A DNA stretch of 6,369 bases. Origin: JAUWCW01 sp030609125 [NCBI: Candidatus Rokuibacteriota bacterium] (GTDB lineage Bacteria; JAUVQV01). The stretch's first letter is position 1. The number at the start of each line of letters is the position of its first letter. The stretch lies in assembly GCA_030609125.1 (NCBI GenBank), contig JAUWCW010000120.1, positions 1 through 6,369 of the forward strand, given 5' to 3'. The notes below the pieces were generated by a model. The model saw nothing but the letters and a program-made list of their open reading frames with translations, made no database searches and had not been told where the DNA came from. Positions 1-6,369 of the stretch are shown here, in pieces. Position numbers and translations under genes: made by a program.

Positions 1-415
1 TCTTCTCGGCGGCCGGGTGGCGGAGGAGCTCGTCTTTACCGACATCTCCACCGGCGCCCAGAACGACCTGCTGAGGGCCACCGACATCGCCCGCAGCATG
101 GTCACCGAGTACGGCATGAGCGACAGGCTGGGCCTGGTCACGTACATCAGGGAGCAGCAGGCGATCTTTCTTCCCACCGGCGCCCCGCCGCCGCCCGCGG
201 AGTACAGCGAGGAGACGGCGCAGGTGATAGACGCCGAGGTGTCCCGGATCGTTGCCGAGACACAGGGGCGGGTGAGGAAGATCCTGGGGGAGAAGAGGCA
301 GGAGCTCGAAGCCGTCGCCGGGGCTCTCCTCGAGAAGGAGAGCATCACCGGCGAGGAGCTGCGGGAGCTGCTGGGGCAAAGGGAAAGCCTTGACAGCGGC
401 TCCCCGAACCAATAA
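1..415 (+). CDS. ftsH: FtsH ATP-dependent zinc metalloprotease, C-terminal part (5' end outside window)
   Basis: This is the C-terminal part of the membrane-anchored AAA+ protease that degrades misfolded membrane proteins and some regulators. The reading frame is open from base 2 and runs to TAA at 413-415. It begins with LLGGRVAEELVF and continues with ISTGAQNDLLRATDIARSMVTEYGMSDRLG, a hallmark stretch of the M41 peptidase domain. The Asp of the GAQND motif (codon 65-67) matches the third zinc ligand of FtsH. The HEXXH site, AAA domain and membrane segments lie upstream, outside the window. The GTG at 17 is an internal Val codon, not a start. A proline-rich stretch (TGAPPPPAEY) precedes the helical end (EETAQVIDAEV..., ending SGSPNQ), which is fairly short for the family. 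The last codons also hold the trp promoter, and no terminator is seen between the stop and the trp leader, so ftsH transcripts may run into the attenuator. Identity is secure. Confidence 0.95.
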   Translation, partial: LLGGRVAEELVFTDISTGAQNDLLRATDIARSMVTEYGMSDRLGLVTYIREQQAIFLPTGAPPPPAEYSEETAQVIDAEVSRIVAETQGRVRKILGEKRQELEAVAGALLEKESITGEELRELLGQRESLDSGSPNQ

Positions 416-418
416 AAT
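390..418 (+). promoter_or_regulatory. Predicted sigma70-type trp operon promoter
   Basis: A perfect -35 hexamer TTGACA (390-395) is followed after 17 bp by TAAAAT (413-418), one mismatch from the -10 consensus TATAAT. The whole promoter lies in the 3' end of ftsH, and the -10 box contains the ftsH stop codon TAA. Normal spacing puts the transcription start near 424-426, directly before the leader peptide ATG at 429. Position ahead of the leader peptide and attenuator supports a role as the operon promoter. No TrpR-type palindromic operator was recognised around it. The start site itself is inferred. Confidence 0.8.
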
Positions 419-428
419 AACCCCCGTT

Positions 429-497
429 ATGGAGATACGGCACACTCACAATTCCCGGAGCGCAGTTCTCTGGTCCTGGTCCTGGCGGTGCGCCTGA
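429..497 (+). CDS. trpL: trp operon leader peptide (attenuation sensor)
   Basis: This is a 22-codon ORF, ATG at 429 to TGA at 495-497. Its second half reads V-L-W-S-W-S-W-R-C-A: three Trp codons (TGG at 471, 477 and 483) alternating with Ser TCC codons. Three tryptophans in 22 residues, between a strong promoter and a terminator hairpin and upstream of trpE, is the signature of a trp attenuator leader. A ribosome starved of Trp-tRNA would stall here and leave the antiterminator strand (492-508) free; a ribosome reaching the stop codon would cover it. There is no other ATG, GTG or TTG in frame, so the start is unambiguous. However, the bases before it (AACCCCCGTT) show no SD, and the predicted transcript begins only a few nt upstream, pointing to leaderless initiation. 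The peptide is too short for ordinary gene finding and probably has no function after synthesis. Confidence 0.82.
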   Translation: MEIRHTHNSRSAVLWSWSWRCA

Positions 498-503
498 GGC
501 CGG
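476..503 (+). promoter_or_regulatory. Attenuator 1:2 hairpin (over the Trp codons)
   Basis: Bases 484-487 (GGCG) pair with 491-494 (CGCC) around a 3-nt loop. After a small internal loop, 476-481 pair with 498-503, using G-U wobbles at 477/502 and 480/499. The 5' strand contains the second and third Trp codons of the leader peptide. This is the expected position of the hairpin that competes with the antiterminator in a trp-type attenuator. The outer helix is weaker than the other two structures and was found by eye. Confidence 0.55.
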
Positions 504-559
504 CCCGTATCCCACAACACTGAAATAACAGAGCAAAGAGCCACGGGGAGGCCGAAGGC
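492..559 (+). promoter_or_regulatory. Attenuator 2:3 antiterminator helix
   Basis: Three colinear helices separated by symmetric 2x2 internal loops join 492-508 to 543-559. GCCT (492-495) pairs with AGGC (556-559), GGCC (498-501) with GGCC (550-553), and CCCGT (504-508) with ACGGG (543-547), giving 13 Watson-Crick pairs. One internal loop is a GA/GA tandem mismatch (496-497 with 554-555), which can form stable sheared pairs. The helix uses bases of both the outer and inner stems of the terminator, so the two structures exclude each other. It also overlaps the stop codon of the leader peptide, so a ribosome finishing the peptide would block it. Confidence 0.7.
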
Positions 560-586
560 GGCCGGTTCCGTGGCTTTTCGTCTTTT
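536..586 (+). terminator. trp attenuator: rho-independent terminator
   Basis: The outer stem AAGAGCCACGG (536-546) pairs with CCGTGGCTTTT (568-578), with one G-U pair. An inner stem GGCCG (550-554) pairs with CGGCC (559-563) across an AAGG loop. The 3' arm runs directly into a T-rich tail (TTTTCGTCTTTT, 575-586). It lies between the leader peptide and trpE, 68 bp before the trpE start, where a trp attenuator terminator is expected. It could also stop transcripts running in from ftsH. Confidence 0.82.
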
Positions 587-2130: not shown

Positions 2131-3717
2131 ATGATACTGCTCATAGACAACTATGATTCCTTCACCTACAACCTCTACCAGTATCTCGAGGAACTGGGCC
2201 GGGAAGTGGCGGTCTACCGCAACGACGCCCTCGGTCTCGACACCGTCCGGGCCCTCAAGCCGGAGGCGATCGTCATCTCCCCCGGCCCGGGCATCCCGGA
2301 CCAGGCGGGCATCAGTCTCGACGTGATCCGGGAGTTCGGCGGCGAGATACCGATCCTCGGCGTCTGTCTCGGCATGCAGTGCATCGGCCAGGTCTACGGC
2401 GGCGCCATCGTCCGGGCCGACAATCTCATGCACGGCAAGGCCTCGATGATACGCCACGACGGCAAGACGATCTTTTCCGGCCTCGAGTCTCCCCTCGAGG
2501 TCGGCCGGTACCACTCCCTCGTCCTGGACCCCGATACCGTTCCGGACTGCCTCGAGATCTCCGCCACGTCCGACGACGGCGAGATCATGGCCCTGCGGCA
2601 CAAGGAACTTCCCGTCGAGGGCGTGCAGTTTCACCCCGAGTCCATCCTCACGCCCCAGGGCCGCACGCTCCTGCACAACTTCATCTCCGGCAGGGAGTCG
2701 GGAATGAAGATCAAGGAGGGGATAGGCGCCGTCATCTCCGGGAAGGACCTGAGCGAGGGGGAGGCGGAGGACATGATGCGCAGCATAATGTCCGGCCTTG
2801 CCACGCCGGCCCAGATAGCGGCCTTTCTCACGGGCCTGAGGCTCAAGGGCGAGACGGTGGAGGAGATCACCGGCTTCGCCCGGCTCATGCGCAGGAAGGT
2901 GACGAAGATCAAGCCTCCCGAGGGGATGCTGGTCGACACCTGCGGCACGGGGGGGGACCAATCGGGGTCCTTCAACATCTCCACCGCCGCCGCCTTCGTC
3001 GCCGCCGGGGCCGGGGTGAGAGTGGCCAAGCACGGCAACCGCTCCGTCTCCTCCAAGTGCGGCAGCGCCGACGTCCTGGCGGCGGCGGGCGTGAACATCA
3101 TGGCGCCGCCTCCCGTGGTTGAGAAGGCCCTGCGGGAAATCGGCATCGCCTTCTTTTTCGCGCCGCTCTTTCATCCCGCCATGAAGCACGCCATCGGGCC
3201 GCGGCGGGAGATCGGCATCCGCACGGTCTTCAACATTCTTGGACCCCTCTCGAACCCCGTCGGCGCCCACGCGCAGGTGCTGGGGGTCTACGACCCTGAT
3301 CTGACGGAGACCATGGCCCGCGTTCTCGGTGAGCTTGGCTCCGACTCGGCCTACGTCGTTCACGGCCTGGACGGCCTGGACGAGATCACCCTGACGACGA
3401 AGACGAAGATATCGTCCCTGAAAGACGGCAAGGTCGAGACTTTTTATCTTGCGCCGGAGGATCTCGGTCTCGAGCCCTGTGAGCCCGAAGCGCTCCTGGG
3501 GGGGGCGGCCAGAGAGAACGCCGAGACGATGAGAAGGATCTTCTCCGGGGAAAAGGGGCCCGTTCGAGACGTGGTTCTCCTCAACGCCGCAGCCACCCTT
3601 GTCGTCGCCGGCGAGGCGGCGGACCTGAAGGAAGGACTGGAGAGCGCCGCCCGCTCCGTCGAATCCGGAGCGGCCATGGAGAAGCTCGATGCGCTGGTGC
3701 GGGTCACGAATGAGTAG
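2131..3717 (+). CDS. trpGD: Fused anthranilate synthase glutaminase / anthranilate phosphoribosyltransferase
   Basis: This is a bifunctional 528-aa protein. Residues 1 to about 190 are a class I glutamine amidotransferase (TrpG) that releases ammonia for TrpE: N-terminus [15 protein letters not shown], oxyanion-loop PGPG (51-54), and triad C79 (GVCLGMQ), H168 and E170 (QFHPES). Residues from about 192 are TrpD, which joins anthranilate to [12 protein letters not shown] (269-276), KHGNRSVSS (from K300), GPLSNPVG, and the metal-binding pair D417-E418 (GLDEIT). There is no stop between the halves; the linker is only SGRESG. TrpG usually has CLGHQ where this protein has CLGMQ. An SD-like GGGAG and ATG (2704) remain at the junction, so separate TrpD synthesis is possible. 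TrpG-TrpD fusions are known in enterobacteria and Thermotoga. The start ATG follows the trpE stop by 4 bp, with GGGAGGG (2117-2123) as SD overlapping the trpE end. Confidence 0.96.
2693..2706 (+). promoter_or_regulatory. Possible internal ribosome binding site and start for TrpD
   Basis: GGGAG (2693-2697) lies 6 nt before an in-frame ATG (2704-2706) exactly where the TrpD domain begins ([13 protein letters not shown]). This looks like a retained start site from a formerly separate trpD. Whether it is used cannot be told from the sequence. Confidence 0.4.
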
Positions 3718-3752
3718 GCGGACGCCTCACCTCGGGCCTCTTTCCGGTTGCT

Positions 3753-3837
3753 CCCTCTCCCCTGATGGGAGAGGGCAGAGCCTGTCCTGAGCACTTCGGC
3801 TTTGCTCAGCACAGGCTCCGCCGAAGGAGTGAGGGGG
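3753..3837 (+). repeat. Palindromic intergenic repeat, copy A, apparently split by a second element
   Basis: CCCTCTCCC (3753-3761) and GGGAGAGGG (3767-3775) form a perfect 9-bp stem with loop CTGAT. The related copy at the trpC-trpF junction has GGGAGAGGG, then TAG, then GGTGAGGGG. Here GGGAGAGGG is followed by about 50 bp of other hairpin sequence before GTGAGGGGG resumes (3829-3837). The simplest reading is an insertion inside the repeat. It fills much of the 133-bp trpGD-trpC gap; the rest (3718-3752) shows nothing recognisable. Confidence 0.6.
3778..3818 (+). repeat. Long hairpin element nested in copy A
   Basis: The arms 3778-3793 and 3803-3818 are inverted repeats of 16 nt with one C-C mismatch (GAGCCTGT-C-CTGAGCA against TGCTCAG-C-ACAGGCTC). 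The loop contains CTTCGG. The loop segment CTTCGGC (3794-3800) is also complementary to GCCGAAG just downstream (3820-3826). No T-tract follows, so this is not a typical terminator. It could slow or stabilise the mRNA between trpGD and trpC, but it is more simply a dispersed palindromic repeat. Confidence 0.6.
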
Positions 3838-3850
3838 ACACGATAGACGC

Positions 3851-4693
3851 ATGAAACACACGTCGCTGACGGACTTTCTCGAGCGTATGCGCGCTCTCAA
3901 GGAAGAGGAGGTGCGCCTGCGCCTGGCGCGGCGCTCCGCCGCCGGGATGGAGAAACTGGCGGCGGAAAAGAAGGCCCCGCCCGACTTCACCGCCGCCCTT
4001 CAGCTGCCGTCGGGAGGGAAAGTCCGGCTCATCGCGGAGATGAAGAGGGCGTCCCCCTCGGCGGGAGTCATCAGGGAGGGCTTCGAGCCCCTCTACCTCG
4101 CGCGCAAGGTCGTCCAGGCCGGGGCATCGGCCGTGTCGGTCCTCACCGAGGAGAAGTTCTTCCAAGGCTCCCTCCAGGACCTGGCCCGGGTGGCGGCGGG
4201 CGTGCCGGCGCCGGTGATGCGCAAGGACTTCATCGTCGACACCTATCAGCTCCTCGAGGCGCGCGTGGCGGGGGCCGCGGCCTGTCTGCTCATCGTGGCC
4301 ATGGTTTCGCCGGCCGAACTCCGCCGTCTCATGAAAGACACCGCCGATCTCGGCATGGCCGCACTCGTCGAGACCCACGACCGCCGCGACGTGGAGACCG
4401 CCCTCGAAGCGGGCGCGCGCATCATCGGCATCAACAACCGCAATCTCAAGACCCTCCGGGTCGACACGGGCACCACCCTGGAGCTGAAAGAGCTCATACC
4501 CGGCGACAGGGTGATCGTGAGCGAGAGCGGGTACAGGAGCCGCGCCGACCTGCGGGTCCTCGAGGAGGCGGGGGTCCAGGCCGTTCTCATCGGGGAGGGG
4601 ATCATGCGCGCGGACGACGTGGGCGAAAAAGTGCGGGAACTCCTGGGAGAAGGACCGGGCAGACGCCCCCTCTCCCCCGAGGGGAGAGGGTAG
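3851..4693 (+). CDS. trpC: Indole-3-glycerol phosphate synthase
   Basis: TrpC closes the indole ring, converting carboxyphenylamino-deoxyribulose phosphate to indole-3-glycerol phosphate with loss of CO2 and water. The 280-aa (beta/alpha)8 barrel has IAEMKRASPSAG (E63, K65, SPS phosphate loop), MRKDF with catalytic K125, E174 in VETHD, NNRN (195-198), and SESGY (E225, S226). It ends in LIGEGIMRADDVGEKVRELLG, near the usual family end. The last 14 or so residues (EGPGRRPLSPEGRG) are extra: they are encoded partly by a palindromic repeat that also provides the stop codon TAG. ATG 3851 is the start, since the frame has a stop at 3830-3832. The only SD-like sequence, GAGGGGG (3831-3837), is rather far (13 nt) and belongs to the upstream repeat, so initiation may be modest. 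Confidence 0.95.
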   Translation: MKHTSLTDFLERMRALKEEEVRLRLARRSAAGMEKLAAEKKAPPDFTAALQLPSGGKVRLIAEMKRASPSAGVIREGFEPLYLARKVVQAGASAVSVLTEEKFFQGSLQDLARVAAGVPAPVMRKDFIVDTYQLLEARVAGAAACLLIVAMVSPAELRRLMKDTADLGMAALVETHDRRDVETALEAGARIIGINNRNLKTLRVDTGTTLELKELIPGDRVIVSESGYRSRADLRVLEEAGVQAVLIGEGIMRADDVGEKVRELLGEGPGRRPLSPEGRG

Positions 4694-4702
4694 GGTGAGG
4701 GG
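4668..4702 (+). repeat. Palindromic repeat, copy B, spanning the trpC end and trpF start
   Basis: CCCTCTCCCC (4668-4677) and GGGGAGAGGG (4681-4690) form a perfect 10-bp stem with a CGA loop, followed by TAGGGTGAGGGG. It shares the stem and the GTGAGGGG tail with copy A in the trpGD-trpC gap. The element encodes the PLSPEGRG tail of TrpC, the trpC stop, and the SD and GTG start of trpF. The trpF SD (GGGGAG, 4681-4686) lies in the 3' arm of the stem. Confidence 0.75.
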
Positions 4703-5315
4703 CTACAGGGCAAGGATAAAGATCTGCGGTTTGACGGACCCCGTCGACGCGGGGGTCGCGGTGGATCTGGGAGCGGACCTGCTGGGGTTCGTCTTTGCCC
4801 CCGGCCCCCGGCAGCTGCCGGTGGAGGAGGCCTTCAGGTTCTGGATGAGCCTCCCCCGGGGCGTGCCGAAAATCGGCGTCTTCAAGGACCAGCGGGAGGA
4901 GCAGGTGCGGAGCGTTCTCTCCGCTCTTTCCCTCGACTATCTTCAGTTTCATGGAAACGAGAGCCCGGAGTTCTGCCGCTCCTTCGGCCTCCCGGTGATC
5001 AGGGCCTGTTCGGCCAGGAGCGTGGAGGACCTGAAATTTCTCGATGGGTGGGGTTTTGCCGACCTTTTCCTCGTGGACCTGCCCAAGGAGGATGCCGGGG
5101 GGGTCCTGCCCCGCGATGTGGCCGAGGCGGCGGCGCACCTGGCGAAACCTACCCTCCTGGCGGGGGGGCTCGATCCGGAGAACGTGGGGGACCTGGTGCG
5201 GAGCGTGCGCCCTTACGGCGTCGACGTGGCCCGCGGGGTTGAGAGGGAACCGGGCAAGAAGGACCTTGGGAAGATGCGCCTCTTCATCGAGCGGGCGCGT
5301 GGAGTGGTAGAGTGA
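4695..5315 (+). CDS. trpF: Phosphoribosylanthranilate isomerase
   Basis: TrpF performs the Amadori rearrangement of phosphoribosylanthranilate, the step between TrpD and TrpC. The 206-aa barrel has the usual length. The catalytic Cys is C11 in RIKICGLTD, the general acid is most likely D128 in LFLVDLPKE, and QFHGNE and LLAGGLDPENV are typical. GTG 4695 is the only plausible start: no ATG precedes the KICGLT motif, and GGGGAG lies 8 nt upstream. It begins 1 bp after the trpC stop, so translation is probably coupled. Several normally conserved spots differ: DVARGVE instead of DVSSGVE, GGVLPRD where many members have GGTG plus an FDW-like stretch, and FAPGPRQLP instead of FAPxSPRYV. The frame is intact, so divergence rather than decay is the likely reading. 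Confidence 0.93.
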   Translation: MRGYRARIKICGLTDPVDAGVAVDLGADLLGFVFAPGPRQLPVEEAFRFWMSLPRGVPKIGVFKDQREEQVRSVLSALSLDYLQFHGNESPEFCRSFGLPVIRACSARSVEDLKFLDGWGFADLFLVDLPKEDAGGVLPRDVAEAAAHLAKPTLLAGGLDPENVGDLVRSVRPYGVDVARGVEREPGKKDLGKMRLFIERARGVVE

Positions 5316-5316
5316 G

Positions 5317-5370
5317 GGCTGTCATCCCGAGTGCTTCGGCTGTCATCCCGAGTGAAACGAGGGATCTGAC
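5317..5370 (+). repeat. Partly duplicated ATCCCGAGTG-type repeat in the trpF-trpB gap
   Basis: GGCTGTCATCCCGAGTG occurs twice in direct orientation (5317-5333 and 5338-5354), offset by 21 bp. The second copy continues into an inverted arm: GTCATCCC (5342-5349) can pair with GGGATCTGAC (5361-5370) through a 2-nt bulge. The first copy appears truncated. The element occupies most of the 78-bp gap; the trpB SD GAGGG (5381-5385) lies outside it. No T-tract follows, so it is not an obvious terminator. Confidence 0.65.

Positions 5371-5393: not shown

Positions 5394-6369
<976 letters not shown>

Follow-up and report, generated by a model that had tools for sequence, protein, structure and literature searches.

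A ribosome-mediated trp attenuator with a probably nearly leaderless leader mRNA, predicted upstream of a bacterial trpE-GD-C-F-B cluster

Ribosome-mediated attenuators of trp operons are classical regulatory elements. In E. coli, the trpL attenuator consists of a promoter, a leader with tandem Trp codons, and RNA segments that form the 1:2, 2:3, and 3:4 helices; the leader is preceded by a 5′ untranslated region with a Shine-Dalgarno sequence, and TrpR also represses the operon. The Rfam family Trp_leader is presumably the family of this attenuator. In other bacteria, trp operons are controlled by a trp RNA-binding protein or a T-box. Leaderless trp leaders are already known in S. meliloti (PMC7298713) and S. 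lividans (PMC8079986), and leaderless genes are described as widespread in bacteria (PMC3160421). The trpL-trpE(G) attenuator (peTrpL/rnTrpL) of S. meliloti, an organism with three trp operons, has a 14-aa leader and an RNA 5′ end at the leader ATG, and is reported to be free of transcriptional repression (PMC7298713). In S. lividans, trpE is preceded by trpL1, a leader that is described as leaderless and carries three Trp codons (MFAHSTRNWWWTAHPAAH; PMC8079986).

We analyzed a window of 6,369 nucleotides (the whole stretch of DNA shown above), in which a cluster of trp genes follows the end of ftsH. The element between ftsH and trpE is, with a probability of about 0.93, a transcription attenuator through which a translating ribosome controls the trp operon. 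Support is good for the core of this reading, an attenuator of that kind whose helices exclude each other. Computation located the parts, showed which of them cannot coexist, yielded the ribosome geometry, and found the element kept in one relative. The features of the window are as follows.

Ends at 415, + strand: C-terminal part of ftsH (Pfam Peptidase_M41)
390-418, + strand: sigma-70-type promoter TTGACA-N17-TAAAAT, 11/12 consensus matches
416-653: ftsH-trpE intergenic region, 238 nt
429-497, + strand: trpL-like leader ORF MEIRHTHNSRSAVLWSWSWRCA, 22 codons, ATG at 429 and TGA at 495-497
434-511, + strand: further helix (434-440:505-511) joining leader codons 2-4 to the antiterminator arm at its 3′ end, in the minimum-energy folds of untranslated, ribosome-free RNA
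471-473, 477-479, and 483-485, + strand: regulatory Trp codons TGG with TCC between them (WSWSW)
476-503, + strand: protector (1:2) hairpin over the second and third Trp codons (476-481:498-503, 482:496, 484-487:491-494)
491-508, + strand: antiterminator 5′ arm with core GGCCGGCCCGT at 498-508, from folding
543-560, + strand: antiterminator 3′ arm, overlapping the terminator 5′ arm, from folding
536-578, + strand: two-tier intrinsic terminator hairpin, 13 bp + 5 bp (536-548:566-578 plus 550-554:559-563)
575-586, + strand: U-rich tract of the terminator, TTTTCGTCTTTT, the first four bases of which also close the stem
639-644, + strand: trpE Shine-Dalgarno sequence AAGGAG, 9 nt before the trpE ATG
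654-2126, + strand: trpE, anthranilate synthase component I (Pfam Anth_synt_I_N and Chorismate_bind)
2131-3717, + strand: trpGD fusion, glutamine amidotransferase and anthranilate phosphoribosyltransferase (Pfam GATase, Glycos_trans_3N, and Glycos_transf_3)
3851-4693, + strand: trpC, indole-3-glycerol phosphate synthase (Pfam IGPS)
4695-5315, + strand: trpF, phosphoribosylanthranilate isomerase (Pfam PRAI)
5394-6368, + strand: trpB, tryptophan synthase beta (Pfam PALP), named from its operon position and running off the contig

The promoter, the Trp-codon leader, and the three helices are common to this locus and E. coli trpL. Unlike in E. coli, the leader here lacks a Shine-Dalgarno sequence, its Trp codons are interrupted, and no TrpR was found. 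The S. meliloti attenuator, as described, is alike in its clustered-Trp leader and its choice between antiterminator and terminator (PMC7298713), and the reported lack of transcriptional repression there is matched by the lack of a detected TrpR here; however, the leader of the window is longer (22 aa), its ATG would lie ~2-5 nt inside the predicted RNA, and the genes form one trpE-GD-C-F-B cluster. The S. lividans leader, as described, resembles that of the window but differs in that its Trp codons are tandem (WWW) and its trpE is monocistronic (PMC8079986). No earlier description of the window's leader was found in the literature searched, which lay mostly outside subscription journals, and we claim no priority.

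The sequence-only reading had proposed a consensus promoter and a 22-codon leader with three alternating Trp codons, and both are present. The promoter boxes (TTGACA at 390-395 and TAAAAT at 413-418, separated by a 17-nt spacer) form the sole promoter of this class in 300-800, where about none was expected from shuffles (mean 0.0, sd 0.2). A short ORF with three Trp in five residues was obtained in 0 of 5,000 dinucleotide shuffles of the intergenic region (416-653), and Trp accounts for 9 of the 1,833 codons counted in the operon genes. The two-tier terminator with its T-rich tail, also proposed earlier, was confirmed, with 1 of 1,000 shuffles of 530-586 folding equally well. Both the leader and the terminator are clearly beyond chance. 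The hairpin at 536-578 lies on the ftsH strand, ~120 nt past the stop codon of that gene, and it might accordingly be the terminator of ftsH, with a Trp-rich ORF occurring nearby by chance. However, the near-consensus promoter overlaps the ftsH end and precedes the hairpin, the three-Trp cluster did not arise in the shuffles, and the relative G001 (see below) keeps the leader, antiterminator, and terminator despite a different upstream gene. An ftsH terminator is thus largely refuted and very unlikely.

Folding also confirmed the 13-bp antiterminator that had been claimed between 492-508 and 543-559. Its pairs (4 + 4 + 5) are 492-495:556-559, 498-501:550-553, and 504-508:543-547, and the duplex of −28.2 kcal/mol is extendable by 491:560 to −30.3 kcal/mol. 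The best duplex between 486-534 and 536-563 (−32.7) was matched by 8 of 2,000 shuffles of 486-534 and reached by 71 of 2,000 when the longer segment 474-534 was shuffled; taken alone, the window antiterminator exceeds chance only moderately. The antiterminator and the terminator exclude each other, as had been stated, but the bases that they share are 543-547, 550-553, and 559 instead of 543-554 and 559, with bases 548 and 554 pairing in the terminator only. The hairpin expected over the Trp codons was found as well, spanning the second and third TGG; unless a ribosome were stalled at these codons, it would sequester the antiterminator arm.

The effect of the ribosome was simulated by folding the RNA with its 5′ part removed, the mask extending 12 nt past the codon; a footprint of 12 nt past the stop codon has been reported (PMC4833913). 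When the RNA to 560 was masked to 485, 491, and 497 (12 nt past the first, second, and third TGG), it folded into the antiterminator at −28.7, −27.8, and −19.0 kcal/mol, respectively. The claim that stalling at the first or second TGG frees the antiterminator arm therefore held, but the restriction to these two codons did not, as the third TGG also leaves 498-508 free, with 9 pairs kept. With the mask to 509, representing a ribosome at TGA, the antiterminator was impossible and the full RNA folded into the 536-578 terminator. This agrees with the proposal that a ribosome at the stop codon covers the antiterminator arm, and the 12-nt footprint beyond TGA coincides with the core at 498-508. When the full RNA was available, the terminator was stronger than the antiterminator even with a stalled ribosome. 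The outcome of the switch therefore depends on the folding order, as in known attenuators.

From these structures, we infer a start site, leader translation, stalling, termination, and a dependence on tryptophan that would operate as follows. RNA polymerase would start a few bases upstream of the leader ATG, and a ribosome would begin translating the 22 leader codons at the RNA 5′ end or very close to it. When charged tRNA-Trp is short, the ribosome would stall at any of the three TGG codons and break the protector hairpin; the free 498-508 segment would then pair with 543-553, no terminator would form, and the operon would be transcribed. When tryptophan is plentiful, the ribosome would reach TGA at 495-497 and cover ~12 nt beyond, which is the core at 498-508, so that the 536-578 hairpin would form and transcription would end near 586.

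The TCC codons between the Trp codons had been called unusual and had been taken, speculatively, as a sign of a response to serine. Serine is a co-substrate of TrpB, and two Ser codons lie inside the stall region, so an attenuator sensing serine together with tryptophan can be imagined. By contrast, the operon genes use TCC more often than any other Ser codon (42 of 88), and G001 has W-W-C-W without Ser between its Trp codons. Moreover, the TCC bases are engaged in the protector helix, one half of which is C-UGG-UC of codons 16-18 with GGCCGG at 498-503 as its partner; because of this pairing, the TCC codons may be accounted for without serine, which would be the simpler reason for their presence. 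The response to serine is unsupported, and we regard it as highly improbable.

Two genomes of the phylum were searchable, that of the window and G001, which belongs to another family of the same order and has a TrpE 74% identical to the window's. The leader ORF and both helices recur in G001, the sole further searchable genome of the phylum (1 of 1). Their absence from relatives, which the sequence-only reading had named as a refutation, was thus not observed. The G001 leader is MNRLQAATGALWWCWRSPGLPAD (…LWWCWR…). Its antiterminator is interrupted and has 18 bp, with a best duplex of −38.6; in the shuffle test, a duplex of −35.5 was reached by 0 of 2,000, and the G001 antiterminator is strongly beyond chance. 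The terminator has the same two-tier build as that of the window, and among the 13 pairs of the lower stem, one is changed on both sides, three are changed on one side, and none is broken, a covariation that is thin because it comes from only one phylum relative. The antiterminator cores GGCCGGCCCGT (window) and GGTCTGCCCGC (G001) have 8 of 11 bases in common when matched by eye; MAFFT of the two leaders aligned the terminators but not the antiterminator 5′ arms. Two results from G001 count against the model. Untranslated RNA extending to the terminator 5′ arm folded into the antiterminator and not the protector hairpin, unlike in the window, and 5′ RNA masked to 1273 gave no antiterminator. 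The G001 leader is preceded by a TPR-like ORF (TPR matches below Pfam cut-offs) instead of ftsH. Because G001 keeps the leader, antiterminator, and terminator behind a different gene and a promoter weaker than the window's, the module belongs to trpE.

We also considered control by a trp RNA-binding protein or a T-box in place of a translating ribosome, since such systems govern trp operons elsewhere in bacteria. No T-box (RF00230) was found in the window or in the window's genome, and no TrpR was found in that genome; these absences are not certain because the genome is 92% complete. Rfam gave no family, Trp_leader included, at gathering score in the window and nothing relevant at E up to 10 in 350-700. 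In addition, only a ribosome-mediated switch would be expected to have a Trp-rich ORF whose end lies at the antiterminator arm. Control by such a protein or a T-box is the least probable of the explanations considered here. On the ribosome-mediated reading, classic trp attenuation extends to a lineage of which two genomes were searchable, and the Rfam models are blind to it.

Two points absent from the sequence-only reading concern how the leader begins: its ATG lies 10 nt past the end of the -10 box, and it has no Shine-Dalgarno sequence, in contrast to trpE with AAGGAG at 9 nt. In frame, the one alternative start is a TTG, which is itself part of the -35 box. A -10-to-TSS spacing of 4-9 nt, as given in PMC8079986, predicts a transcription start at about 424-427. 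The leader has the combination by which leaderless mRNAs are described as recognizable, a -10-like signal located ~10 bp upstream of the start codon together with the lack of a Shine-Dalgarno sequence (PMC3160421). Because of this distance and the lack of a Shine-Dalgarno sequence, the leader mRNA is probably nearly leaderless. The TTGACA-to-ATG distance is 39 nt in the window and 38 nt in G001, and with a spacing of 4-9 nt both RNAs would start no more than a few bases from the ATG. Against this step, the -10 box of G001 is poor (TAAGAA; 9/12 overall), and GGAG is located 14 nt before the G001 ATG.

We then took a census of the regions upstream of trpE in 153 genomes or records, with one region from each and only two from the window's phylum. 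The sample comprised 139 genomes (the 133 better-scoring of 189 with a match, plus 6) and 14 records from the best 80 of 579, the other 66 being mostly Nocardia, Rhodococcus, and kin. Minus-strand loci were turned, and all 153 regions passed the frame check. In 32 of 153 regions, compared with 28 of 612 shuffles, a leader ORF carrying a Trp pair or cluster stood ahead of a terminator-like hairpin; at this rate, some of the two-Trp leaders will be false. Leaders with at least three Trp codons were found in 16 of 153 regions and in 1 of 612 shuffles (Fisher p 5e-11, an optimistic value since kin are not independent), and fewer than one of these 16 is expected by chance. As judged by eye, the Trp run is interrupted in 10 of the 16 (WWCW, WWVW, WRWWRW, WWFFW, and others) and plain in 6; an adjacent Trp pair is missing in two, the window and G058. 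The alternation of Trp codons, previously considered unusual, is thus one end of a continuum and not a new design. A W-S-W-W leader with a 10/12 promoter 9 nt before its ATG is present in G255, which failed the census filter and is uncounted.

The geometry of the window's leader was then sought in the census. Twenty-four of the 32 leaders entered this analysis, and the removal of four without an ATG start (G058, G193, G018, and L036) gave n = 20; the eight left out had no adjacent Trp pair, a terminator weaker than −13 kcal/mol, or a stop outside 60-340 nt before the reference point. Where several ATGs were available, the best-scoring one was taken, and the shuffles chose likewise but the background ORFs did not. 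A promoter with at least 8/12 matches and a -10 box ending 4-11 nt upstream of the ATG was found in 12 of 20 leaders, including the window (2.55 expected from shuffles), and the same geometry with at least 9/12 matches was found in 7 of 20 (0.49 expected). For background short ORFs of the same regions, the corresponding numbers were 54 and 11 of 609 (Fisher p 4e-8 and 3e-7, respectively, values that are optimistic because related genomes were counted singly). The 12 leaders (window, G001; G022, G251, G159; G036, G247, G170; G020, G157; G141; G177) span five phyla. G022, G036, and G141 represent three further phyla, and G020 and G157, of one family, are in none of those phylum lists; the geometry of G177, which is AT-rich, is likely due to chance. 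The geometry was absent in the remaining 8 of 20, of which five (G032, G094, G245, G199, and L032) have a four-base Shine-Dalgarno-like match instead and three (G026, G047, and L037) have neither.

In the window's genome, the pattern TTGACA-N16-18-TANNNT-N4-10-ATG occurs 19 times and its reversed form once; with a spacing of N24-30 instead, the counts are 16 and 1. The ORFs behind the 19 sites are the window's leader, 10 of at least 76 codons, and 8 of 1-40 codons. When the first residues (up to 110) of the 10 longer ORFs were scanned, nine had a Pfam match and eight passed the curated cut-off. Judging from this promoter pattern, the window's genome seems to use leaderless-type starts elsewhere. 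The genes behind such promoters at L242, L244, L245, L248, L251, L254, L256, L258, and L259 of this genome (G000) have the following domains: HrcA (HrcA-type repressor), FitA-like antitoxin, metal-sensitive repressor, GreA/GreB, poly(A) polymerase head, response-regulator, and, in three cases, AAA_14, one of these matches being below cut-off.

To the leaderless trp leaders already described, the window adds one lineage and the census several more. Tentatively, and at slightly under even odds, the trp attenuators of this phylum and at least four others may have leaderless leader mRNAs. If so, the ribosome would engage the RNA 5′ end upon its emergence, which would couple it tightly to the polymerase, and termination would release a small leaderless mRNA of ~160 nt, free to act at other sites in the way reported for S. 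meliloti. Confirmation of the geometry would suggest that 5′-end loading of ribosomes is a recurrent means of starting attenuator leader peptides and not a quirk of rhizobia and streptomycetes. This recurrence is the part worth following up.

Several further observations were made on the terminators and on the operon. Two tandem terminator-like hairpins, judged by eye, follow the Trp leader upstream of trpE in L009 (G032) and L027 (G022), as if attenuation were doubled. The motif GCC[AG][CT][AG]GG is present in attenuator terminators of several phyla, in 10 of 24 compared with 4 of 66 other terminator-like hairpins (Fisher p 2e-4, which is optimistic because the motif was chosen after viewing the same sequences). 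Its carriers are the hairpin at 536-578 of the window, L003 at 1323-1368, and the terminators of G022, G094, G245, G247, G251, G159, L032, and L036; other conserved patterns in trp attenuators have been described for Actinobacteria (PMC1262725). In the window, trpG and trpD are a single fused protein of 528 aa (2131-3717). The trpF-trpB gap contains GTCATCCCGAGTGAAACGAGGGATCT at 5342-5367, a dispersed repeat with five genome copies including its own (up to 2 mismatches) and none of the reversed pattern. The trpGD-trpC gap contains, at 3748-3835, an inverted repeat of the CCCTCTCCC/GGGAGAGGG type that is similar by eye to 4668-4691 and is perhaps another interspersed element.
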